Assembly: GCA_016742275.1 (NCBI GenBank)
Contig: JACVCD010000002.1
Location: 62,001 to 126,000, forward strand
Direction of reading: 5' to 3'
From: Gemmatimonadaceae bacterium
GTDB taxonomy: Bacteria > Gemmatimonadota > Gemmatimonadetes > Gemmatimonadales > Gemmatimonadaceae
DNA length: 64,000 nt
The notes below the pieces were generated by a model. It made no database searches. It saw only the letters and a program-made list of their open reading frames with translations, and was not told where the DNA came from. Shown here one piece after another: positions 3-14,633 of this stretch (its first letter is position 1; the number at the start of each line of letters is the position of its first letter). The translations under genes were made by a program, and so were the position numbers.

Positions 3-1289
3 TGTGGGCTTGGGTTGTGCATGGGGCTGGGAACCACAACTGCACAGCTTGAAGCGCAGGGAACGGGGCAGAAATTCCGCGACTCCTCGCTCGCGGCACG
101 GGTGGCGCATGTACGGAGAATTCTGCGCACGTCGCCATTGGTAGACGGGCACAACGATCTGCCGTGGGCGATGAGAGAAGAAAAAGAACGCCCGCTCGAT
201 GTGGAGGCGTACAATCTGCGTCGCACCACATCCGGCATGACCGACATTGCGCGTTTGCGCCGTGGTGGTGTTGGCGGACAGTTCTGGTCGGTGTACATCC
301 CTGGCGAAATTCGCGACAGCGGGTATGCGCGCGTGCAGCTCGAACAGATCGACATCGCGCGTCGTGTCATTGCGCGGTATCCGGATGTGTTCACGCCGGC
401 GTATACAGCAGCCGATGTACGCAAGGCGTTTGGCGCCGGTCGCATTGGTTCACTGATGGGCATGGAAGGTGGGCATGCCATCGAGAACTCGCTTGGCGCC
501 CTGCGCTCGTACTACGCGCTCGGCGCGCGGTACATGACGCTCACGCACAATGTCACGCTCGACTGGGCGGACGCTGCGGCAGACGTGCCCAAGCATGGGG
601 GGCTCACCGAGTTCGGCCGTGAAGTTGTACGGGAAATGAATAGGTTGGGCATGTTGGTTGACCTGTCGCACGTGTCACCCGGTACCATGAGCGACGCGCT
701 CGACGTGACCGAAGCGCCGGTTATCTTTTCGCACTCGAACGCACGTGCTCGTACCGATGTACCGCGGAATGTCCCAGACTCCATTCTGGCGCGCATGCCG
801 AAGAACGGCGGTGTGGTCATGGTGACGTTCGTTCCCGGTTTCGTATCGCAAGCTGTTGCCACTAGTGCGGCTGCACTCAACCGTCTGGGCGATTCGGTTT
901 CGAAAGCCAATCCGGGAAACAACGATGCGGTGTTTCGGGCCGTAGCTGCGTGGCGCGCGTCTCATCCCTCACCGGTTGCCACCATTGCTGACGTGGCGGA
1001 TCATCTCGACCACATCAAGCGGGTGGCCGGCGCTGCACATGTAGGATTGGGCGGCGACTTTGATGGCATCACCGAGACGGTGCAGGGTCTCGAGGATGTG
1101 TCCAAGTATCCGGATCTGCTGGCCGAGCTCGTGAAGCGCGGCTGGACAGACGCGGAGTTGCGTGGCCTTATTGGCGAGAACGTATTGCGGGTACTTACCC
1201 GTGCCGAGGCCGTCGCTGTGCAACTGCAGAAAGCCCGCCCCGCCTCCACCAAGACCATCCAACAACTGGATCGGAGACCCACCCCGTGA
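3..1289 (+). CDS. Membrane dipeptidase, peptidase family M19 (5' end probably outside window)
   Basis: The frame is open from the left edge, so the N-terminus, probably a signal sequence, is likely missing; a TTG at 15 or an ATG at 21 are the alternative starts. Family M19 enzymes are zinc-dependent dipeptidases acting outside the cytoplasm. Metal-site and family motifs are visible in order: DGHNDLPW (the HxD pair), GMEGGHAIENS, VDLSHVSPGTM, FSHSNAR and GLGGDFDGI near the C-terminus. The visible 428 residues cover essentially the whole catalytic barrel. The stop overlaps the next start (GTGA), so it is translationally coupled to the epimerase genes. The substrate cannot be told from sequence. 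Confidence 0.92.
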   Translation, partial: CGLGLCMGLGTTTAQLEAQGTGQKFRDSSLAARVAHVRRILRTSPLVDGHNDLPWAMREEKERPLDVEAYNLRRTTSGMTDIARLRRGGVGGQFWSVYIPGEIRDSGYARVQLEQIDIARRVIARYPDVFTPAYTAADVRKAFGAGRIGSLMGMEGGHAIENSLGALRSYYALGARYMTLTHNVTLDWADAAADVPKHGGLTEFGREVVREMNRLGMLVDLSHVSPGTMSDALDVTEAPVIFSHSNARARTDVPRNVPDSILARMPKNGGVVMVTFVPGFVSQAVATSAAALNRLGDSVSKANPGNNDAVFRAVAAWRASHPSPVATIADVADHLDHIKRVAGAAHVGLGGDFDGITETVQGLEDVSKYPDLLAELVKRGWTDAELRGLIGENVLRVLTRAEAVAVQLQKARPASTKTIQQLDRRPTP

Positions 1290-2455
1290 GCGTCGACCGT
1301 CGCACATTTCTCAAGACTTCCGCCGTACTTGGCGGCGGCCTTTCACTCGGCTTGCCTGCGCTCGCCGAAGCTTTCACTGCCGATGGTGTACGAGCGGCAG
1401 CGTATCGCCCTGAAACAGGTACGGCTCAGCCCAAGCCGCTCCGCATCCTCATTCTTGGCGGTACCGGATTCATCGGACCGTATCAGGTGCAGTACGCGCT
1501 CGACCGCAAGCACAAGGTCACGCTCTTCAATCGCGGCCAGACCAACAACACGCTCTTCCCCGACGTGCCGCGTTTGGTTGGCGACCGCAACGTCGCCGGT
1601 GGTCACGACGCACTCAAGAAGGGCACGTGGGATGTCGTGATCGACAATCCCACCACCAACCCCAAGTGGGTGCGTGGCGCCGGTGAAGCGCTCAAGGGAC
1701 GCGCTGGACACTACATCTTCGTGTCCACCATCTCGGTCTTCAGCGACTACTCGAAGCCGGGCATGGCCGAAGACGGTCCGCTCAATGCGCCGACCGACAT
1801 CGAAAAGGAATTCGATCGCAACGCGCAGTTCTATGGACCGAACAAGGTGCGCAGTGAGATGGAAGCGGTTGCGCAGTTCGGCAAGGACAAGGTCACCATC
1901 GTGCGCCCCGGTCTCATCGTGGGCCCCGGCGACCTGAGCGATCGTTTCTCCTACTGGCCCGTGCGCATCGACAAGGGCGGCGAAATTCTCGCGCCGGGTA
2001 CGCCAAACGATCCGGTGCAGTACATCGACGCGCATGATCTGAGTGAATGGATCGTGCGTCTTGGTGAGAATCACACGATGGGCACGTTCAACGCCACTGG
2101 CCCCAAGTCGCCGACCAACATCGCCGAGATGTTGTACGGTATCAAAGCGGTGACGTCGAGCGATGCCAAGTTCACGTTTGTGCCGGCCGATTTCCTTGCG
2201 CAGCATCAGGTGCGCGCGTGGAGCGAAATGCCGGTGTGGCAGCCGGGTCAGGGTCGCACGGCAGGCTTCATGGCCATCGACTGCAGCAAGGCATATGCGG
2301 CGGGTTTGACCTGCCGTCCGCTCGCCGACACCGCCAAGGCCACGCTCGACTGGTACAAGGAACGTCCCGCTGCCGAGCAGGAGAAGGCGCGCGCCGGTCT
2401 CGCGCCGGACAAGGAAAAGACCGTGCTCGCCGCCTGGCGCGCACGTAACGGCTGA
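1286..2455 (+). CDS. Tat-exported NAD-dependent epimerase/dehydratase family protein
   Basis: 389 aa, GTG start inside the upstream stop. The N-terminus carries a twin-arginine signal (RRTFLK followed by an Ala/Gly/Leu-rich stretch), so the folded protein is predicted to be exported with its cofactor. The mature part starts with a Rossmann motif, LILGGTGFIGPYQVQ, and continues as an extended/atypical SDR (NAD-epimerase) domain with VRPGLIVGPGDLSDRF. It is the first of three tandem paralogues that share YWP(V/I)R, LAPGTP and the closing EKTVLA-type tail. Substrate is unknown; members of this family act on nucleotide sugars or related compounds. Only this copy has a Tat signal. Confidence 0.88.
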   Translation: MSVDRRTFLKTSAVLGGGLSLGLPALAEAFTADGVRAAAYRPETGTAQPKPLRILILGGTGFIGPYQVQYALDRKHKVTLFNRGQTNNTLFPDVPRLVGDRNVAGGHDALKKGTWDVVIDNPTTNPKWVRGAGEALKGRAGHYIFVSTISVFSDYSKPGMAEDGPLNAPTDIEKEFDRNAQFYGPNKVRSEMEAVAQFGKDKVTIVRPGLIVGPGDLSDRFSYWPVRIDKGGEILAPGTPNDPVQYIDAHDLSEWIVRLGENHTMGTFNATGPKSPTNIAEMLYGIKAVTSSDAKFTFVPADFLAQHQVRAWSEMPVWQPGQGRTAGFMAIDCSKAYAAGLTCRPLADTAKATLDWYKERPAAEQEKARAGLAPDKEKTVLAAWRARNG

Positions 2456-2502
2456 TCGCAGCGGCTCATCGCAACAACTGATCCGTCAACCGGACATTCA
2501 TC

Positions 2503-3522
2503 GTGGCACTTCGCATCCTCATCCTGGGCGGCACCGGCTTTATTGGGCCGCACCAGGTGGAGTACGCATTGTCGCGTGGCCACAAGGTCACGTTGTTCAA
2601 TCGCGGTCGCACCAATCCTTCACTCTTTCCTAACGTCGAAAAGTTGATCGGTGATCGCAACGCACCGAATGGCTACGACGCGCTCAAAGGAAAAAAGTGG
2701 GATGTCGTGATCGACAATCCGGTGCAGGTGCCACGATGGGTGCGCGAAGCAGGAACCGTACTCGCGCCGAACGTGGGCAAGTATGTGTTCGTGAGCACGC
2801 TCTCCACGTATGCCAATCGCGGCAAGATCGGCATCAACGAGAATGACACCGCGATGCTCAACACGCCGTCGGCGCCCGATGCCAACGAGCGTGATGCGAG
2901 CTATGGCGAGCGAAAGGTGCGCGGTGAGATGGATGCGCGGGCCACGTTTGGTGAGAACAAGACGCTCGTGGTGCGGCCAGGACTCATTGTTGGCCCTGGT
3001 GATCTCACCGATCGTTTTTCGTACTGGCCCATTCGTGTGGAACAGGGTGGTGAGATGCTCGCGCCCGGCACACCGGATGATCCAGTGGCGTTCATAGATC
3101 AGCGCGATCTCACGGAATTCATGATCCGACTGTGTGAGCAGGATGCCACTGGCACGTACAACGTGGTTGGTCCGGCATCGGGACTCACCATGGCCGGTAT
3201 GCTCTACGGTTGCAAAGCCGTCACGTCGAGCGACACCCGTTTCACCTGGGTGAACGCAGACTTTCTGCTCGAACGCAAACTGCGTCCATATGCTGATCTG
3301 CCGGTGTGGATGCCACCGACGGGCAACAGTGCTGGTTGGGCGCGCATGGATGTGAGCAAATCGGTGAAAGCGGGTCTCACGTTCCGACCGCTCGCTGAAA
3401 CCGCACGTGACACGTTGACCTACTATCACGCGCAGACTCCGGAGCGTCAGGCGGCGCTCAAGGCAGGTCTTGCGCCCGATCGCGAGAAGACCGTTCTCGC
3501 TGAGTGGAAGGCCCGCTCATGA
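2503..3522 (+). CDS. NAD-dependent epimerase/dehydratase family protein (second tandem paralogue)
   Basis: 339 aa, GTG start (MALRILILGGTGFIGPHQ). It is closely similar along its length to its upstream and downstream neighbours, including the Rossmann glycine motif at the extreme N-terminus, VRPGLIVGPGDLTDRFSYWP, and a C-terminal APDREKTVLAEWKAR. There is no signal peptide, so it should be cytoplasmic. The three copies most likely arose by tandem duplication. The substrate is unknown; sharing an operon with a dipeptidase and a permease suggests a role in uptake or processing of a peptide- or sugar-linked compound, which is inference. Confidence 0.87.
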   Translation: MALRILILGGTGFIGPHQVEYALSRGHKVTLFNRGRTNPSLFPNVEKLIGDRNAPNGYDALKGKKWDVVIDNPVQVPRWVREAGTVLAPNVGKYVFVSTLSTYANRGKIGINENDTAMLNTPSAPDANERDASYGERKVRGEMDARATFGENKTLVVRPGLIVGPGDLTDRFSYWPIRVEQGGEMLAPGTPDDPVAFIDQRDLTEFMIRLCEQDATGTYNVVGPASGLTMAGMLYGCKAVTSSDTRFTWVNADFLLERKLRPYADLPVWMPPTGNSAGWARMDVSKSVKAGLTFRPLAETARDTLTYYHAQTPERQAALKAGLAPDREKTVLAEWKARS

Positions 3523-3529
3523 AGGCTCC

Positions 3530-4549
3530 ATGAAGATCCTCGTCCTTGGTGGTACGGGATACATCGGACCGCATCTGGTCACGCATGCACTCGAGCGTGG
3601 TCATCAGGTCACGTTGTTCAACCGCGGACGTACACGTCCTGGTCTGTTTCCGAAAGCTGAGCAGCTGATTGGTGATCGCAACACACCAACCGGTCATGAT
3701 GCGCTCAAGGGACGCACGTGGGATGTGGTATACGATCTGCCGGCCACCAATCCGCAGTGGGTGGTGAACTCCACCAACGTGCTCAAGGGCAATGTGAAGC
3801 AGTACGTGTACGTGAGCAGCACGGCAGCGTACAAGGACTTCACACGATCCTATCCCGACGAAACACATCCCGCGCAGGATCCCGCGCCGATTGATGGACC
3901 CGATGCGGCCAACGCGCCATACGGCAACAAGAAAGTGCGCTGCGAACAGCTCGTGCAGGCGGCGTTTGGTTCCGGAGCTACCATCGTGCGTCCCGGACTC
4001 ATTGTCGGCCCTGGTGACCTCACGGATCGTTTCACGTACTGGCCGGTTCGCATCGAGAAGGGCGGCGATATTCTTGCGCCGGGCAAGCTCGATGATCCTG
4101 CGCAGTGGATCGATGCGCGTGATCTCACGGAGTGGATGGTTCGACTCGGCGAGAACAGCACCGGTGGTGTGTTCAACGCGGTGGGACCGCGCACGGTGTG
4201 TGGCATTGGTGAGCTGCTCTACGGAATCAAGGCCTGCTACGCCAACGATGCGCGCTTCACCTGGGTGCCTCAAGAGTTTCTCACGGCCAACAAGATCCGT
4301 TCGTGGGCGGAGATGCCGGTGTGGAGTTTCACTGGCGCCAGTACCGTGGCGTTCTCCACGTCGGTGATTGAGAAGGCGAAGGCGGCGGGGCTCACGTTCC
4401 GTCCGCTGTCGGTCACGGTGCGCGATGCGATGACGTGGTACCACGCGCGTCCGGCGGCAGAGCAGGAGCGTTTGCGCGCCGGCATTTCAGCTGAACGCGA
4501 GAAGGAAATTCTGGCGTTGTGGCGGGCTCAGAACGGCGGGGCTCGGTGA
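3530..4549 (+). CDS. NAD-dependent epimerase/dehydratase family protein (third tandem paralogue)
   Basis: I start the gene at the ATG at 3530 (MKILVLGGTGYIGPHL), 7 bases after the previous stop, because the longer frame from 3470 lies inside the preceding gene and adds no domain. The 339 aa product has the same architecture as its two neighbours: N-terminal Rossmann motif, VRPGLIVGPGDLTDRFTYWPV, and a conserved C-terminal helix ending REKEILALWRAQN. No signal peptide. The stop codon overlaps the GTG of the permease gene. Function within the family is not assignable from sequence. Confidence 0.87.
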   Translation: MKILVLGGTGYIGPHLVTHALERGHQVTLFNRGRTRPGLFPKAEQLIGDRNTPTGHDALKGRTWDVVYDLPATNPQWVVNSTNVLKGNVKQYVYVSSTAAYKDFTRSYPDETHPAQDPAPIDGPDAANAPYGNKKVRCEQLVQAAFGSGATIVRPGLIVGPGDLTDRFTYWPVRIEKGGDILAPGKLDDPAQWIDARDLTEWMVRLGENSTGGVFNAVGPRTVCGIGELLYGIKACYANDARFTWVPQEFLTANKIRSWAEMPVWSFTGASTVAFSTSVIEKAKAAGLTFRPLSVTVRDAMTWYHARPAAEQERLRAGISAEREKEILALWRAQNGGAR

Positions 4550-5835
4550 GCGCATCGCCGTCGGTTGTTGCACGACTGATGAACCGGCTTGGCACCATCG
4601 AGCCGGGTGAAGAACGAGCCACCACACTCGCTGCCACGTATTTCTTCTTCGCACTCGCAAGCTATTTCATTCTGCGGGCGGTGCGAGATGCGGCGGGTGT
4701 GGCTGCCGGAACGGGCCAGCTACCATGGCTGTTCACCGGCACACTCATCACCACGCTGGTGATGAATCCGATATACGCCAGTGTCGTGGCGCGGCTGCCG
4801 GTGCGTCGTTTCATCCCGATTGTGTATCGGGTGTTCATTGCGCTGTTGCTGGTGTTCGCCGGTGTCATCAAGTACGGTCCGCCCGCGTGGGAGCCGTACC
4901 TCGGTCCGGCATTCTGGATTCTCACCAGCATCTACAGTCTGTTCATCCCCTCGGTGTTCTGGGGGTTCATGGCCGACACGTTCAATCCGGAACAGTCGAA
5001 GCGACTGTTTGGATTCATCAGTGTTGGTGGTACGCTGGGCGCCATTGCCGGCGCGTTTCTCACATCGCAGTTGGCGCAGCGCGTGGGTACACCGGTGCTC
5101 ATGATCATGAGCGTGGTGCTGCTGGAATGTGCGGTGCAGAGCACACGCCGCTTTCCGCCAAGCTTCCGTGCTGACACACGTGCCCGTGACGAAGCCGAAC
5201 GTGCAGTTGGCGGGTCGTCGTTTGCCGGCATTACGCATGTATTGTCGTCGCCCTATTTGCTGGGCATCTGCCTGTACATGCTGATGTTCACCATCGGCAG
5301 CACGGTGCTCTACTTCCAGCAGGCCGAGATCGTGGGCGCGCGCTATGCCGATCGTGAAGCACGCACGGCGTTTCTGGCGACCATTGATACAGTGGTGCAG
5401 ACTCTCACAATCCTCGCGCAGTTGTTCGTGACGGGTCGCGTGATCAAGTGGGTTGGCGTGGGCTTCACGCTGGCCATCATGCCCATTCTGAGCCTGATCG
5501 GATTTGCCTCGCTCGGCATGTGGGCCACGCTGGCGGTGTTCGTGGTGTTTCAGGTGACGCGTCGCGCGGGCGAATACGCGTTTGGTCGTCCTGCACGCGA
5601 AGTGCTGTTCACCGTGGTCGCACCGGAAGACAAGTACAAGGCCAAGAATTTCATCGACACCTTCGTGTATCGTGGTGGCGATCAAATCGGCGCGTGGAGT
5701 TATGCTGGTCTCACGGCGGCGGGCCTTGCCGTCAGTACGATTTCACTGCTGGCAGCACCACTCAGTGCGATCTGGTTGGTTGTGGCTGTCTGGCTTGGGC
5801 GCCAGCAGGCGCAACGGCAGCTCAGCGATTTTTAG
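4546..5835 (+). CDS. MFS / Npt1-Npt2 (Tlc)-like membrane transporter
   Basis: 429 aa, GTG start overlapping the preceding stop by 4 bases (GTGA). A longer frame from 4519 exists, but coupling favours 4546. The protein is a polytopic membrane protein with about 10-12 hydrophobic segments, beginning with FFFALASYFILRAVRDAAG, a segment seen in bacterial MFS proteins related to the Npt1/Npt2 (ATP/ADP translocase-like) family. Basic loops such as VARLPVRRFIP lie between helices. As the last gene of the dipeptidase-epimerase operon it may move the pathway's substrate or product. Nucleotide transport should not be assumed. Confidence 0.8.
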   Translation: MSASPSVVARLMNRLGTIEPGEERATTLAATYFFFALASYFILRAVRDAAGVAAGTGQLPWLFTGTLITTLVMNPIYASVVARLPVRRFIPIVYRVFIALLLVFAGVIKYGPPAWEPYLGPAFWILTSIYSLFIPSVFWGFMADTFNPEQSKRLFGFISVGGTLGAIAGAFLTSQLAQRVGTPVLMIMSVVLLECAVQSTRRFPPSFRADTRARDEAERAVGGSSFAGITHVLSSPYLLGICLYMLMFTIGSTVLYFQQAEIVGARYADREARTAFLATIDTVVQTLTILAQLFVTGRVIKWVGVGFTLAIMPILSLIGFASLGMWATLAVFVVFQVTRRAGEYAFGRPAREVLFTVVAPEDKYKAKNFIDTFVYRGGDQIGAWSYAGLTAAGLAVSTISLLAAPLSAIWLVVAVWLGRQQAQRQLSDF

Positions 5836-5904
5836 CCAATGACGAAATGGTAGCTTAAGATATGGAATCCGGACCACACCTTGCGCACAAGCCAGACAAG
5901 AAGT

Positions 5905-5920
5905 AGCCGCCCCAGCGGCT
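5905..5920. other. Small perfect hairpin upstream of the RT gene
   Basis: AGCCGC and GCGGCT flank a CCCA tetraloop in the 214-bp gap between the permease and the RT gene. There is no U-tract after it, so it is not a convincing terminator. Some DRT systems (types 2 and 9) use an upstream structured RNA; nothing here shows that this one does. The rest of the gap shows only an AGGTGAGAG ribosome-binding site before the ATG at 6050. Confidence 0.35.
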
Positions 5921-6049
5921 GATTTCGCAATGAAAACGCAACATCGGCGACCGGATTTCCACCTAACTGTCAAAGTGCCCGATCTCCGCGCTCTCTCGGG
6001 ATGACAGCACCACTCAAACTCGTATCATAGTTTCTTGAGGTGAGAGAGA

Positions 6050-6706
6050 ATGGAAAATCTTGAACTTGCACTACTCTCATATGCTAAAGCGAAGCGCGAG
6101 CTACTCGCAGAAAAGGAATGTGTTTGCGCTAGTTCCTTTGCGTCATTCGAGCAGTCGCTCAAGGAAAACCTTCAACTAGTAGCAAGCGCGATCGAAGGAC
6201 CGCTCGTCAAGTTCAATGCAGTTTCAGTTGGTACTTGTCGAATGGTCCCCAAAGCACTTACTGCTCTTAGCAATAACGAAAACGCAGTACTTCATACTGA
6301 GTCGGCATACAAACAGGATGTGTTGGCGGAAGTACGTTTTCGGTTAGACCCGTCCCCCGCTTTCGCTACGCTTGAGGTGGTATACCTGCGTGAGTACGGG
6401 CCAGCGCTCGAAAGCATACTTGGGGATTCGGCTCTCGGAAATCGCCTTGAACTGCGGAGAGGCGAATCTTCACTAAGCAGCAGGCGGCTCTTTCGCTACT
6501 GGTCACCCGAGTACCGAAAGTTTCAAATCGACCCTCTTCGTTCTGCGAAATTGGAGCTTGAGCGTGGGGAACGAGTAGCAGTGCTATGCGCAGATATTAA
6601 GTCGTTCTATGACTCACTCAATCCGGAATTCATGGTTGAACCGTCGTTCGTGGCGGCGATTGAGGTACAATCGAAAAGCAGAGGAATTCAGTTTGACTCC
6701 GAATGA
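6050..6706 (+). CDS. N-terminal RT fragment (motif A half) of the DRT1-like protein
   Basis: 218 codons from an ATG with a good AGGTGAGAG site upstream to the in-frame TGA. It contains the RT fingers region (RRLFRYWSPEYRKFQ) and motif A (ADIKSFYDSL) but lacks motifs B and C. As a separate polypeptide it could not be a complete polymerase. Confidence 0.7.
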   Translation: MENLELALLSYAKAKRELLAEKECVCASSFASFEQSLKENLQLVASAIEGPLVKFNAVSVGTCRMVPKALTALSNNENAVLHTESAYKQDVLAEVRFRLDPSPAFATLEVVYLREYGPALESILGDSALGNRLELRRGESSLSSRRLFRYWSPEYRKFQIDPLRSAKLELERGERVAVLCADIKSFYDSLNPEFMVEPSFVAAIEVQSKSRGIQFDSE

Positions 6707-6772
6707 TACATTAGGAGCACCAATCTTCTTCTACAGTCCTTCAATACGTACTGGAGTGAAGTCTCCGACACC

Positions 6773-8983
6773 GTGGGTGAGAGTGTTTCAATCGGCACTC
6801 CAATTGGACCATTGACAAGTAGATTGATCGCAAACGTAGCTTTGGCGGAGCTTGACAGGTACGTCGAATCAGATTCGCGAACGATTACTTACCGTAGGTA
6901 CGTCGACGACGTTGTGGTGGTCTCCAAGGTCGAGCCGAATACGAAAGTTGAAGTCAAGAGCATTCTTCCTTTGACCAAGATCGCCGATTCAGACGTCTTA
7001 GACTCTCAGGTGTTGAAGCGTTCGAAAGTTCGCCTCATGGTCAACGCAAGAAAGACGCGCCTTCACGTACTTGAAGGAAGGACAGGCGTTGGATTTCTAG
7101 ATACTGTGATTCGCTACCAGCTCGAGCTGGCAAGCCAGCGGCGGTCGTTTGTTCCTGAGAATAGACTGCTCACTGAAAGTTCCGCTACAATTGCGCGCTC
7201 AATCAGCAAGAACGAAACTGTTCCAAAGACACTTCGGGAAATCGACGAGCGTAAGCTTGAGAAGTATGCAATCAACACAGCAATTATCGGTGTAAGCAAC
7301 GCAGCGATACTCATAGATCGCGCCGAAGCAAACCAGATTGTTCGCAGAGCAGTGGAGCACCTGCTTACTCTAGCTCGCGGTAGCTACAACTGGCCGGAGT
7401 TCTTGGCACCACTGTGCTCACTTCTTGAAGTTGCCGTTTCGCTGCAGCTAAAGAGCCCAGCGCGCCAAATCGTTAACCACTTCCTTGGCACCGAAGAAGG
7501 CCGGAGTGGAGTCATAGAGGGAATGGTTGCGATTCAATGGGCGAATAGGGAGATCGCGAACGCCGAGGCGCAGAAGATGATTCGTAGCTGGGTAAAACAA
7601 CGTCTCAAAGACGCGATCTCAATTGGAGTGTCATCTTGGACATTAAAGGTTCGAAGCAGCAACTCCAAGAAAAGTCGCCAAGTCTTGAACTTCCCGTCCC
7701 TTGCCAGCCCGAACATGCTCCGCAGGCAGGGCAATCGATTCCTTCGGTCAGGAATTTCGCATCGTACTACACTTTTCAAGTTGCGTGGACCGATAGAAAT
7801 ACCGCGACGATCGACCTGGGGTTTGAGTGGGGTCACGTGGTCACACGCAATGGAGAAACGAATCGGCGTCCTTCGTGAACTTGCAGGCCTAGGAAGGCGA
7901 GCAAATGATCCGGTACTCGCTCGTGACTGGATATCGGCAATACTTCATCCAAATCCTCCATCATACTTTGCCGTCGCTATGCTTGTTTGGAGCGACACGA
8001 AGACTTCTGAAACGTTTGTCGAGCGCCTATGGAGAACTACCAAGTACGTTAACGCTTTGCGAGGAACCAAGTACCGCTCGCCTGATGCAAAACTTGACTT
8101 AGCCGGTACGGTGAGCCTGCCTCCGAGCGTTAGGAACTCGACCTCCGAAGCAATTCGTTACGTACTTGCGAATCTCGAAACCACGGATGCAAGCTGGAAA
8201 AGCTCCCTTCGCAATCCGAGTCGCTCGCTTGATCGACTGCTCTCACTAAGCAGGACAATCGACAGTTCACTCGAGTGTCAGACAACAAAATGGGGTGATC
8301 TGTCGCCAATGCTCATACTACTACCGGAGCTCTCATTGCCGCGAACTTGGGTCGCGCCACTTGGTGACTACATCACTTCTCGTCGGAAAGTTGGGTTAGT
8401 TGCTGGTATCGAATACCTCGTTGAAAAATCGAGTGGTCTCGTGACGAACCAAGCAGTGGCAATACTTCCTGGCCCGTACAAGAGCGCCAGCTTCTGGAGC
8501 TGGAGAAAGCGAGCACCGGCACAGAAGGAGAAAGAAGAGCTAGCAAAGGAAGGGTTCCGATTGGAAGTACAAGGAGTTGAACGAACTCTAGTCCTTGATA
8601 CGGAATTTGGCAGATTTTCCGTGCTCGTCTGCAGTGAAATTATCGATACCAAGAAGATAGCAGATGTAGTTGGTAGAGCCGAAGTGCTTCTTGTTCCAGC
8701 TTGGAATCAGGACACGACGAGTTTCGACCACATGACAAAGTCAGTTGGACTCGCAACTCACACCATTGTATGCGTCGCGAACAATAGGAGGTTCTCGGAT
8801 TGCAGGGCATGGGCGCCGCTCAGCAAGCGCTATGAGCAGGATCTGTGTCGTTTGATCGAAAGAACAAGGGACGGAGTAATTGTATTCGAGCCGCCAATCT
8901 CGTCTCTAAGAGATCTCCACGAAACTGGCTTAGATTCCGAGTCGATTTGGAAGCCACTGCCTCCTGGCTGGATGGAGAGCTGA
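6773..8983 (+). CDS. C-terminal RT palm and nitrilase fragment of the DRT1-like protein
   Basis: Same frame as the upstream fragment. A GTG at 6773 is the first candidate start after the TGA, but the 22 codons before it also read as RT sequence and no clear ribosome-binding site precedes it. The fragment holds RT motifs B and C (YVDD), an all-helical middle region of about 400 residues with no motif I recognise, and the nitrilase domain with its Glu and Cys residues. Independent initiation would give an RT palm without motif A. Confidence 0.65.
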   Translation: MGESVSIGTPIGPLTSRLIANVALAELDRYVESDSRTITYRRYVDDVVVVSKVEPNTKVEVKSILPLTKIADSDVLDSQVLKRSKVRLMVNARKTRLHVLEGRTGVGFLDTVIRYQLELASQRRSFVPENRLLTESSATIARSISKNETVPKTLREIDERKLEKYAINTAIIGVSNAAILIDRAEANQIVRRAVEHLLTLARGSYNWPEFLAPLCSLLEVAVSLQLKSPARQIVNHFLGTEEGRSGVIEGMVAIQWANREIANAEAQKMIRSWVKQRLKDAISIGVSSWTLKVRSSNSKKSRQVLNFPSLASPNMLRRQGNRFLRSGISHRTTLFKLRGPIEIPRRSTWGLSGVTWSHAMEKRIGVLRELAGLGRRANDPVLARDWISAILHPNPPSYFAVAMLVWSDTKTSETFVERLWRTTKYVNALRGTKYRSPDAKLDLAGTVSLPPSVRNSTSEAIRYVLANLETTDASWKSSLRNPSRSLDRLLSLSRTIDSSLECQTTKWGDLSPMLILLPELSLPRTWVAPLGDYITSRRKVGLVAGIEYLVEKSSGLVTNQAVAILPGPYKSASFWSWRKRAPAQKEKEELAKEGFRLEVQGVERTLVLDTEFGRFSVLVCSEIIDTKKIADVVGRAEVLLVPAWNQDTTSFDHMTKSVGLATHTIVCVANNRRFSDCRAWAPLSKRYEQDLCRLIERTRDGVIVFEPPISSLRDLHETGLDSESIWKPLPPGWMES

Positions 8984-8997
8984 TCTCTAGCGTAGAT

Positions 8998-11900
8998 TCA
9001 GTTGATCTGGGCTACGACCCTACGTGAAAGGTTCGCGGCGCGCTGACGAAACGTCGGCTCGCCGCGTGCCCAGGCACGTGCCACATATTCGGCGTGCACA
9101 ATGGCCGAATCGCGTCGACCAGCGGCCATGTGGGCCTGCGCCAGCAGCTCGTGCATCTCCGTGTGCGTAACGGCAATGCCATCCACCACATCACGCAAGA
9201 GCGGGCGTATCATGCGAATGGCTTCGTCCGCTTCGCCGCGCTGCAGCAGTGCGCGAGCGAGTTCAAGATTGACGCGTGAATGGTAGCCGCGAATAGGAGG
9301 CGCTACGGCTGCACGCCATTCGGTCAGCGCCTGTGAATTGTTTCCGCGCGCCCGATACATGAGGCCACGTACGTAGTGGTGCGCGCGCGTGTCTCGTACG
9401 ACTCCGCTCTGCGCGCCAGCGACTTCGATGGCCTTGAGTCGCGCCGGCAATGCGATCGTATCACCCAGCAAGGCCGTGAAGTCGGCAGCTGCTGTCAGTG
9501 AGCTGGTACGCAATCGCTGCACATTGGCGGCGTTCTCGCCAGGGCGCACGGTGCCAGCGGCCATGGAATCGAACAGTGCAATCGCTGCGCGCGTGCGGCC
9601 GGCATCATGCAGAATATGCGCGGGCAAGTACGCATGGTTGAGCGCCATGCGGCCGCCATCAACCGTGTCGCGCAGGGCACGAAAGCGATTGACCGCAGCC
9701 AGTGCTTCCTGCATGCGACCCTGATGTCGCAGAATGCTGGCCAGCTGCCACCAGCCATCGAGCCGCTGATCTGCTGTGGCCAGCGTGGTTTGCTCGCGTG
9801 CCAGGCGCTCGGCTTCTTCTAGGCGGGCGCCACGCACCAGATTGCTAATGTGACGCACAAAGCCGGACGGATACGCCGGATCGAGCGCAAGCGTACGTTC
9901 GATAGCACGATGACTCTCTTCCAGTCGTCCGGTGAAGTCGAGTACACGCGCGTAGGTTCCCCACGCTTCAGCCGACTGTGGCTGCGCATCGACCCAGCGC
10001 TTGATAGACGCCACTGCAGAATCCGGCGCGTCCTCATCCATCCATGCGCGTCCCAGCAGTTGCACCGCTTCACAGCCGTAGCAGTGTTCCGGTCGACGCG
10101 TGCGCAGCGCAATGGAGTCGAGCGCAATGGCTCGCTCGAGATACGGGCGCGCTTCTGCCGGCTGACCCAGATTGAGCCGCGCTTCGGCCGCAAACAACAG
10201 GGCCTGCGGATCCTGATTGTCGAGCGTGAGTAGCGAATCAGCCGTTTCGCGAAGTCCGGCCAACTGCATGGTGGACGCCCAACCCGCTTGAATCACCAAG
10301 CGTTCACGCATCGTGGCGCGCCGCGCGAGCCGCAGGGCACGCTCCATTTCATCGGCGAGCTCGGCGCGATTGGGATTGACGCGCGCATACTCGTATGCGG
10401 CCATGGCAAAAAGCGAGTCCTGCTTCAGTGCTTCGCCAAACAAACGACGCGCTGCTTCGAGATCGTACGAGGCATTGGCACGCAAACCTTCCGCATAGAA
10501 GCGATGCGCGGTAGCGGAGCGTGTGGTCACATCACGCACACTGCCACGCAGCGGTTCGATGCCAAAGCCATCGAGCAGTCGTGTGGTCCCGCTGTCGGCC
10601 AACGCAAACAGATCTGATGCGCGAATCGTCAGTGCTGCGAGAACGGATCCGGTTTCCACATCGACGCGGCGCAGATCAAGACGTAATTCACCATCGCCTG
10701 GATCGAACAACGCACCGTCAATCAATTCGTGCGCACCAGCGCGCCGCGCAGCGGCAATGTAGGCAGCTTCTGTGCTGTCACCCATCGCGCCCTGGTGGAG
10801 CAGTTCACTCAAACGTGCGGCGCTGACAACGCGTAGCGCTTCACTCCGTGCGAGACTGGTGGCAAGCAACGCCGCGAGCGAACGCACCGGTCCCTGTGAT
10901 GGCGTGCGGAAGTCCGAGATCAGTCCAACAGCAATGCTTGGCGGCCGATGATAACGTGGTTCGCCAGGTCCCGGCTCGTGTTCCTGCGGTGGCCAGAGTG
11001 CCCAATCGGCCACGATGAGCAATGTGGCGGCGAGCAACCACTGCATCCAGCGGGCGGGCACGGGCGCGGGTGCAGACTCGGTTGCAGGCGCAGGCACGAC
11101 ACCAGCAGACACTGCGACAGCGGGAGTTTCGACCGGAACCTCAACGATCGACTCTTCCACAACATCAGCAGCAGGCTGTGCCACCGCCAACGGAGCTACA
11201 ATCGCAACCGGTTGCGCCGGTGCTGCAACGGGCGGATTGTCGCGCAACTCCTCCGCATACGCCACCACTTCACGATCCGGCGGAAGTTCGAGCTCTTCCT
11301 GAATCAGTGTTTCGTGAATGGCGGCCTGTCGAATGGCCGCAGCCACTTCGCCATTGTTGGCCAACGCGCGCATGAGTGCGAGCGTGGCGCGCGAATCGAG
11401 CGGGTCGACCGCTGCGGCTTTGCGTCGCCACTGCACGGCATCACCAAACTGTCCATTGCGTTCTGCATCGGCCGCCAGCATTTCCACCGCGCGCAGAAAA
11501 TCGCGCTCGAGCACACGGCGTTCTTCCTCGGCCCATCTCTCAAACGCCGATGCGCCAGCGAGATGAAATCCGCCGAGAAACGGACCGGCATACAACGCGA
11601 CCGCATCAGCATGACGGCCATGCTTCAGATGTTCAGCAAACAGGCCGACGTCATGCGGCAGTAGTCCACCATCGAGACGCAATTCTTGCGTACCGACAAT
11701 GACCGCTTCATCGCCGAGGTCGCGGCGCAATGCATAGAGCGCCTGCGCGAGCGCCTTGCGACGACGTTCTTCATCGTCTTCGTCAGGCCAGAAGAGTTGC
11801 AACAGACGCGTGCGCGACACACCGCGATCACCGGCGCGTGCCAACACCGCCAGCATGGCGAGTCGCCGCTGCTGCGTCGCTGCTCCCTTGACCTCTCCTT

Positions 11901-12072
11901 CGTCGGACACCACTGCGCATCCGCCGAACGTGACGAATCGATACATGTCAATCGGAAATCGTGTGGCCGGTGCGACCGGCGCATGCGAAGGCTCAGAGGA
12001 GAGCCCGCGCGCGCCATCGCCCCATTCTCGTCGGATGTGCGTCCGAGGGGAAGTCGCGTCGGCCATCAACAT
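8998..12072 (-). CDS. SARP-like BTAD transcriptional regulator with membrane segment and TPR tail
   Basis: 1024 aa if started at the ATG at 12072, which shares one base with the upstream stop (TGATG coupling). An ATG at 11946 (MYRFVTFGGC) directly begins the domain and is a good alternative; the longer frame to 12207 lies inside the upstream gene. Order of parts: OmpR-type winged helix (VSRTRLLQLFWPDEDDEERR), bacterial transcriptional activation domain, a Pro/Ala/Val-rich linker, one membrane helix (WLLAATLLIVADWALW), a TolB-N-like domain, then TPR repeats to the end. Such proteins are abundant in Gemmatimonadota. It is last in a four-gene minus-strand operon and may control it (inference). 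Confidence 0.85.
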   Translation of the reverse strand: MLMADATSPRTHIRREWGDGARGLSSEPSHAPVAPATRFPIDMYRFVTFGGCAVVSDEGEVKGAATQQRRLAMLAVLARAGDRGVSRTRLLQLFWPDEDDEERRRKALAQALYALRRDLGDEAVIVGTQELRLDGGLLPHDVGLFAEHLKHGRHADAVALYAGPFLGGFHLAGASAFERWAEEERRVLERDFLRAVEMLAADAERNGQFGDAVQWRRKAAAVDPLDSRATLALMRALANNGEVAAAIRQAAIHETLIQEELELPPDREVVAYAEELRDNPPVAAPAQPVAIVAPLAVAQPAADVVEESIVEVPVETPAVAVSAGVVPAPATESAPAPVPARWMQWLLAATLLIVADWALWPPQEHEPGPGEPRYHRPPSIAVGLISDFRTPSQGPVRSLAALLATSLARSEALRVVSAARLSELLHQGAMGDSTEAAYIAAARRAGAHELIDGALFDPGDGELRLDLRRVDVETGSVLAALTIRASDLFALADSGTTRLLDGFGIEPLRGSVRDVTTRSATAHRFYAEGLRANASYDLEAARRLFGEALKQDSLFAMAAYEYARVNPNRAELADEMERALRLARRATMRERLVIQAGWASTMQLAGLRETADSLLTLDNQDPQALLFAAEARLNLGQPAEARPYLERAIALDSIALRTRRPEHCYGCEAVQLLGRAWMDEDAPDSAVASIKRWVDAQPQSAEAWGTYARVLDFTGRLEESHRAIERTLALDPAYPSGFVRHISNLVRGARLEEAERLAREQTTLATADQRLDGWWQLASILRHQGRMQEALAAVNRFRALRDTVDGGRMALNHAYLPAHILHDAGRTRAAIALFDSMAAGTVRPGENAANVQRLRTSSLTAAADFTALLGDTIALPARLKAIEVAGAQSGVVRDTRAHHYVRGLMYRARGNNSQALTEWRAAVAPPIRGYHSRVNLELARALLQRGEADEAIRMIRPLLRDVVDGIAVTHTEMHELLAQAHMAAGRRDSAIVHAEYVARAWARGEPTFRQRAANLSRRVVAQIN

Positions 12073-12518
12073 CAGGGGACGCCCGCAGCGGGGCTCTGAG
12101 GAACCGGAGCAGCCAGACGGCGCCACACCCGCGTGACCAGTGCCGCACGGGAATCGATGGCCGCCAACACCGAGGCCGGCGTACGATCCGGCACCACATC
12201 CCGGCACGCCCAGGCCAGTGCCTCAAGTGCCAGCCGCTGCGTTCGATCATCGACACCACTCGCCAGCCCCCAGCGCACCACTGCCACGACCAGTGGAATA
12301 GAGAGCGGATCATCGAGCTCGAGTCGAAGCAGGGCAACGAGCTTTTCGTACCAGGCGCACCACCAAGTCTCTTCTGTGGGTAGTAGCACCGGCGACACGA
12401 CAACACGCTGCAATTCGTGCATTCGCGCAACGAAGGCATCCCGCATGGGGCCTGGCACCGCATCGAGCGCTTCGCAGAGATGACGCAGTGTCGGTTGCGG
12501 TTCAGTGCTGGCTGTCAC
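12072..12518 (-). CDS. Hypothetical protein
   Basis: 148 aa, ATG start lying 17 bases inside the end of the globin gene, and its stop shares a base with the BTAD regulator start, so it is firmly inside the operon. I do not recognise a family. It is mostly helical, rich in Leu, Val, Ala and Trp, with an N-terminal acidic region and a central RLELDDPLSIPLVVAVVRWG stretch. No signal peptide or membrane helix is evident. It could be a partner of the globin or the regulator, but nothing in the sequence says which. Confidence 0.7.
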   Translation of the reverse strand: MTASTEPQPTLRHLCEALDAVPGPMRDAFVARMHELQRVVVSPVLLPTEETWWCAWYEKLVALLRLELDDPLSIPLVVAVVRWGLASGVDDRTQRLALEALAWACRDVVPDRTPASVLAAIDSRAALVTRVWRRLAAPVPQSPAAGVP

Positions 12519-12923: not shown

Positions 12924-14633
12924 TCAGCGACTCCGCGGTGCGGTATGCGACGCGTTCTGCGTTGCGCTATTGCCCGCGAGCTGCGCAATCATGGCTTCGA
13001 GCTGCGCAAGACGCGCGGCCATGGCGGCGTTCTCTTCACGCAGCGCCATCACTTCGGTCTTGAGCGAACGCGTGCGGTTGTCGAGCGCCTTCACACCGGC
13101 GATGGCCACACCATCGATGTCGACCGTGCTGATGGCCTTGTCGGTGTCACCGAGATTGAAGGCCGCGCGGAACGCCTGCGCCGTCGGGCCCATGTGGCGC
13201 GTGGTCGTGTCTTCGGCGGTGTAGTTCCAGGTGTACACCGGCATCGCGGCCAGCTTGCTCAATACCGATTCACCATCGACGGCCCGGAAGTTGGCCTTCT
13301 TGGTGGAGTCGGAGGTGTTGGTCCAGACGCCGCCGGTCGTGAGATACGCCCCCGAACTTGTTTCGATGAGTCGACCCACTGTCGCAGTTGACGGTCCACC
13401 CGTACCCAGAAAGAAGCGATCCGCGCGCACGACGAAGTGGCCGTCCTGCTGGGCGTTCACTGTACCGCCTAGTGTGGAAGCGTCGATAACCATAGCGTTC
13501 TTCTTGCCATTGGTGTTGGCACCCTTGCCGATCGCGATGCTGCCTTCACCGGACGCGGTTCCGCGAAATGCCAGGGATGAGTTGCCCGATGCAATGCCAT
13601 GAATCGCCGTCGAATTGCTCGCGGAGGCGCTTCCGGAACCGAGCATGATTGACGAATGCCCAGTTGCATAGGCACCCGGTCCGAGCGCGAGGCTATAGGC
13701 ACCACTCGCCGTGCCTCTCCAGGCCAGTGCGTCTGCTCCACTGGCAACTCCACTGGTGAGGGCCATCGCACCAACACCCGTCGCTTGGGCATAGCCACCC
13801 AATGCAATGCTGCCTGAGTTCGTAGCCGAAGAGTTCGATCCCACGGCAACGCTATGGAGGCCCGAAGCGGTGGCATAGGCGGTTGCCGCGAACGAGGCCC
13901 AGCCCGAGGCTTCGTTATTGTCGCCAAATGAAGCGGACGCACCACCGATCTTTGCTGCGGTCCAGCCACCAACGCCATCGAATCCCGTGCGCAATGCGCC
14001 GTAGCCGCCGGCCCAGAGCAGAGCGGGCCCGCTGCCGGCATTGAGGGGGGCGGCATTCACACCGTTGGGGTTCACGACAGCAAATCCAGTGGACTGCCGC
14101 ACACCATTCGACAGCAGATACTGGGTGTGGTCGTCATCGCCCAGTCCGGTCAACGCACCGTGATCGCTCACGCCACCAGCGCCCCCACCCGCCGCCACGG
14201 TCTTCGCCTCCCACTGCTGCGCGCTGGCATTCCACGTCAGCACCTGCCCATCGGTCGGCGGTGTAGCGGCCAACGCACGGCCGAGCAGCTTGCCAACGGT
14301 CAGGTTGCTGAACACACCGGTCACATCGCCGGCGGCATTGTCGGTGTTCTTGACCGCATTCTGCAGCGCGGCTACAGCCTCGGCGCCGTCGGTCCAGCTG
14401 AACGCCACATGCGTAGGCTGCAGACAATTCTGCGGCGTGCTCGTGGCCTTGATCCGGTAGACCGTACCGGACGCCGGCACATAGCAGGCATGAATGACCG
14501 TCTGCGCTTCGGCCGGCGTCGCGGCGGCGAGACCCAGCGCGGCCAGCAGCGCCGCCGCATACGAATGAATGGAGCGGCGGAACGAGGGGCAAGCCGACAT
14601 CGGCGTGCTCGAGGACATCAAATAGAAAGACAT
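12924..14633 (-). CDS. Secreted surface protein with YadA-like head repeats and C-terminal S74 chaperone domain
   Basis: 569 aa. A signal peptide ends near ATPAEAQT; starts at 14618 or 14600 would leave a more typical signal n-region. The middle holds repeats of the trimeric YadA-head type (SVAVGSNSSATNSGSIALGG and relatives, roughly one per 14 residues). The C-terminal 150 residues look like the S74 intramolecular chaperone: SDSTKKANFRAVDGESVLSK, VYTWNYT, HMGPTAQAFRAAF and a final coiled coil. S74 domains assist trimerisation and cut themselves off in phage tail spikes. First gene of the operon with globin and BTAD regulator. It lacks a YadA anchor. Confidence 0.85.
   Translation of the reverse strand: MSFYLMSSSTPMSACPSFRRSIHSYAAALLAALGLAAATPAEAQTVIHACYVPASGTVYRIKATSTPQNCLQPTHVAFSWTDGAEAVAALQNAVKNTDNAAGDVTGVFSNLTVGKLLGRALAATPPTDGQVLTWNASAQQWEAKTVAAGGGAGGVSDHGALTGLGDDDHTQYLLSNGVRQSTGFAVVNPNGVNAAPLNAGSGPALLWAGGYGALRTGFDGVGGWTAAKIGGASASFGDNNEASGWASFAATAYATASGLHSVAVGSNSSATNSGSIALGGYAQATGVGAMALTSGVASGADALAWRGTASGAYSLALGPGAYATGHSSIMLGSGSASASNSTAIHGIASGNSSLAFRGTASGEGSIAIGKGANTNGKKNAMVIDASTLGGTVNAQQDGHFVVRADRFFLGTGGPSTATVGRLIETSSGAYLTTGGVWTNTSDSTKKANFRAVDGESVLSKLAAMPVYTWNYTAEDTTTRHMGPTAQAFRAAFNLGDTDKAISTVDIDGVAIAGVKALDNRTRSLKTEVMALREENAAMAARLAQLEAMIAQLAGNSATQNASHTAPRSR

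Follow-up and report, generated by a model that had tools for sequence, protein, structure and literature searches.

The window analyzed here is a 64,000-nt stretch of a Gemmatimonadaceae genome (contig JACVCD010000002.1, positions 62,001 to 126,000), and it carries a gene that is probably a horizontally acquired, single-gene UG5-nitrilase defence system recently inactivated by one nonsense substitution. The gene occupies positions 6050–8983 of the plus strand as one frame of 977 codons if read through, encodes a reverse transcriptase (RT) joined to a nitrilase, and contains a single internal TGA at codon 219 (6704–6706, +). Translation returned exactly the coordinates and content given in a preliminary description of this DNA, and together with alignment it confirmed one TGA, no frameshift and the retention of RT and nitrilase catalytic residues. 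The open part 5′ of the stop (6050–6706, +) specifies 218 residues comprising N-terminal helices and the RT up to motif A, without motif B or YVDD, and the gene ends at a natural terminator that is also TGA (8981–8983, +). A Shine-Dalgarno-like AGGTGA (6038–6043, +) is located 6 nt 5′ of the ATG, preceded by a candidate sigma-70-like promoter, ATGACA-16-TATCAT (6001–6028, +), which agrees at 10 of 12 positions and is a weak match, as three promoter-like matches were found in the region against a mean of 2.1 in shuffles. Automatic annotation would call two ORFs here, a truncated RT and an ‘RT-nitrilase’ without its N-terminus.

The geometry of these ORFs alone is no evidence for a single gene, because the window is GC rich and contains dozens of same-frame pairs of open segments of at least 90 aa split by one stop. 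A chance pair of ORFs is rejected by homology on both sides of the TGA. Before the stop, residues 5–206 match positions 24–217 of the PADLOC RT_UG5-nitrilase profile (PDLC03780; E 7.6e-28), and the part after the stop matches positions 223–890 (E 3.2e-77). The read-through chain gives a single match to the same profile, residues 6–974 to positions 25–890 of 907, and its 363.8 bits exceed the sum of the two halves (95.4 + 258.8). Alignment places the RT motif A aspartate at D182 (6593–6595, +), motif B at G249-x-P251-x-G253 and the catalytic YVDD at Y284–D287 (6899–6910, +), followed by the nitrilase catalytic residues E760 (8327–8329, +), K820 (8507–8509, +) and C861 (8630–8632, +). Family-invariant residues are retained at fractions of 0.42 before and 0.36 after the stop in the window, compared with 0.51 and 0.45 in one related locus (L035) and 0.57 and 0.53 in another (L059); the drop in the window resembles that in the two relatives, so the part past the stop shows no additional decay.

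A scan of species genomes yielded 37 related loci, the two nearest to the window being L034, from a Blastocatellia MAG, and L035, on a contig binned as Gemmatimonadetes that is apparently the G180 contig of our whole-genome set, with identical length and ORFs. The taxonomic assignment of L035 is doubtful because near-identical contigs, 99.96% identical over 6761 bases, occur in MAGs of two phyla (L035/L036; Gemmatimonadetes MAG CADEFN010000025.1 and Acidobacteria MAG CADEFD010000234.1), probably through cross-binning. Across the stop the window reads GIQFDSE*YIRSTNLLLQSF, L035 and L027 read GIAFDTAEYRVATTTLLAAF and L034 reads GRSFSLSRYRTATKSLLNKY, each in gap-free alignment with the window. 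The preliminary description had made its case depend on whether the 22 codons between the TGA and the next possible start (6707–6772, +; GTG at 6773) are aligned RT sequence, and they proved to be homologous RT sequence, gap-free in the two nearest relatives. At the stop position itself L034 has Arg (CGC) and L035 has Glu (GAG), and of the 32 relatives aligned at this column, 28 have Leu and the other four have Ile, Val, Glu and Arg, one apiece; none has a stop, although the more distant members align uncertainly in this loop. Because the two nearest relatives have a sense codon here, the stop is no conserved recoding signal. The CGA-to-TGA change proposed earlier stands in part: the CGC of L034 makes an arginine codon a plausible ancestor of the TGA, but this is the reading of one homologue, and the GAG of L035 is more than one change away from TGA.

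The gene sits in a low-GC segment (5836–8997) between a convergent transporter gene (4519–5835, +) and a BTAD/TPR regulator gene (8998–12207, −). The site is empty in the sister species G020, G001 and G022, in which transporter and regulator are adjacent, their matched protein ends lying approximately 91, 22 and 19 bp apart. GC content is roughly 0.47–0.52 inside the segment and 0.57–0.64 in the flanks, and the gene itself has 50.7% GC compared with 61.1% for the window. Among 41 genomes searched, the RT-nitrilase gene was present in this one and absent from its 40 relatives, and a survey of the phylum returned any family match at E 1e-10 in 7 of 395 genomes, this one included. The simplest account is that horizontal transfer brought the gene in as a lone insertion. 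No repeats marking the ends of the insertion were found, the window gave no Rfam match that would point to an intergenic ncRNA, and no viral copies of the gene were confirmed. Elsewhere in the window, three consecutive NAD-dependent epimerase-like genes (PF01370) lie in tandem on the plus strand upstream of the transporter (1286–4549), and the minus strand at 12924–14633 encodes a protein that combines YadA head repeats with a Peptidase_S74 (endosialidase chaperone) domain at its C-terminus.

With the TGA at codon 219, the ribosome would release a 218-residue fragment, and because this fragment ends before motif B and YVDD, no polymerase would be expected to form; in-frame starts downstream would supply at most a piece without motif A. 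In an AlphaFold model of the read-through chain, built with 24 sequences and of mediocre overall confidence (mean pLDDT 64.7, good mainly around the RT core), codon 219 falls close to the beginning of the helix (residues 217–242) that lies between motifs A and B, and residues 221–230 have a pLDDT of 93. Given this position near the start of a confident helix in the palm, the 218-residue product would be without most of the polymerase palm. A fold search with the model returned nitrilase-superfamily amidases first, and the PDB matches listed were nitrilase-superfamily enzymes, none of them DRT1. We infer that the lesion is young, since the rest of the gene has neither frameshifts nor lost catalytic residues. 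The earlier characterization of the gene as freshly dead with no frameshift is thereby well supported, with both halves in register in one profile and the catalytic residues kept. Counting against recent inactivation as the best reading, 758 codons without further lesions would be equally expected of a functional gene or of a base error.

The strongest competing explanation, which we consider unlikely, is that the organism itself carries an intact gene, with the TGA entering the assembly as a base error or as an allele of a minority strain. It would account for everything else in the gene being intact and for the sense codons of the relatives at the stop position, and the genome is a 33-contig draft (99.62% complete, 1.44% contamination). 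Against it, a consensus assembly rarely contains a single substitution error, relative to how often mobile defence genes carry a real nonsense allele, and broken copies of the family exist elsewhere, with a TAG in L058 and frame changes in L034 and L061. The L058 copy, a UG5-nitrilase of Candidatus Symbiopectobacterium, has its in-frame TAG in the nitrilase part (L058:7206–7208), and in L034 (Blastocatellia AA13) the frame changes just after YVDD (L034:1109–1187), which either adds a second broken RT to this small lineage or reflects an error in assembly; L061 is likewise a UG5-nitrilase relative. That the lesions lie at different places fits independent losses better than a shared signal, and some of them may be assembly errors.

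Readthrough or suppression of the stop, constitutively or during infection, with full protein made at a low level, is very unlikely. The frame and catalytic residues do continue for 758 codons past the stop, and a toxic abortive-infection protein could conceivably work at low expression. Against this, none of 47 typed tRNA matches has the anticodon TCA (genome 99.6% complete), the tRNA-Trp does not differ from that of 22 congeneric species, and the gene uses TGA as its own terminator. A selenocysteine tRNA was not found, as the RF01852 matches retrieved were ordinary tRNAs, mainly tRNA-Ser, and SelB gave matches only below the cut-off. Selenocysteine insertion and a UGA suppressor tRNA were rejected on these results, and with no UGA-reading tRNA and no SelB above the cut-off the gene does not classify as a selenoprotein or UGA-recoded gene. 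A programmed frameshift is excluded by the identical frame on both sides of the TGA. There is no repeat tract at the TGA, which lies in unique sequence, and since the lesion is a one-base substitution without a frameshift, the gene does not classify as phase-variable. Taking the tRNAs, SelB, the terminator and the sense codons of the relatives together, readthrough, recoding and slippage-type phase variation are unsupported, and so are the preliminary suggestions of a recoded, readthrough-dependent, conditionally suppressed or phase-like gene. Low basal readthrough is possible, judging from the sequence; should the stop prove to be read through, an abortive-infection toxin would here be controlled in a new way.

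It is also highly improbable that each open part is translated on its own and the two products form a working split enzyme. Related RT and nitrilase sequences are found as two overlapping ORFs in L035 and L027, and PADLOC has a separate model for an RT-associated nitrilase (PDLC03804). The L035 and L027 split lies between the domains, whereas the stop in the window interrupts the RT palm, close to where the confident helix begins, and the next in-frame start, GTG 6773, would omit 22 homologous codons and has no Shine-Dalgarno at normal spacing. In L035 the two ORFs (L035:1733–4763) are in different frames, their open frames overlap by 59 nt, and they are split near the same domain boundary as the L034 frame change; a natural form with two genes, or translational coupling, could explain this arrangement. 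Equally improbable, in our estimation, is that the stop is kept as a brake, with a UGA silencing a toxic single-gene defence that is produced only when readthrough occurs, rarely or on infection; the window, L034 and L035 would then represent a small lineage whose RT-nitrilase chain is regularly interrupted and is joined during translation.

Recent inactivation of an acquired defence gene thus remains our preferred reading, and the locus is most likely an ordinary case, a copy of a known kind of defence gene. Inserted alone, absent from sister species and probably disabled already by one base, it shows cleanly how a costly defence gene can be gained and lost. Abortive-infection defence by DRT1 depends on the active sites of both its RT and its nitrilase, and DNA synthesis by class 3 RTs is protein-primed and template-free (PMC13275509). 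An intact UG5-nitrilase would, by analogy, probably act much as DRT1 does: its RT would synthesize protein-primed DNA without a template, this DNA would control the nitrilase effector, and infection by a phage would tip the balance so that the nitrilase ends the infection along with cell growth. 

The label ‘DRT1-like’ used in the preliminary description thus holds as a functional analogy but fails as a family assignment, as UG5-nitrilase is a sister family. DRT1 (UG1) likewise has RT and nitrilase in one chain, its mechanism is probably similar, and it is the best solved-structure relative by sequence (PDB 9yfd, E 6.2e-8). It was rejected as the family because the Drt1a profile gives only 78.7 bits on the read-through chain, compared with 363.8 for RT_UG5-nitrilase, and because DRT1-like proteins fall in a separate clade of the tree. 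In the same tree the window, L034 and L035 group as a small, divergent lineage next to the remaining UG5-nitrilases, most of which are from Pseudomonadota, and long branches leave the details unsure; the window protein is 30–35% identical to L034 and L035 and 21–24% identical to other UG5-nitrilase members. The serine that serves for priming in DRT1, S402, lacks conservation among the other class 3 members (PMC13275509), and the window region likely to match it aligns poorly and has a pLDDT below 50 in the AlphaFold model. Among class 3 RTs, DRT5S and DRT5L have been shown to make covalent protein-primed DNA without a template (PMC13275509), and their relation to UG5-nitrilase is assumed from the name. 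The closest known system is RT_UG5-nitrilase itself (PDLC03780; class 3 UG/Abi RT), with which the window gene shares a single-gene organization of RT and C-terminal nitrilase matched over the whole chain, RT motifs A, B and YVDD, and the Glu-Lys-Cys triad. It differs in coming from a divergent lineage and in being interrupted by one TGA (6704–6706) in place of an uninterrupted ORF, and by its sequence it is a broken member of RT_UG5-nitrilase by descent, not a working one, the loss of function being what we would expect from a chain that ends inside the polymerase.
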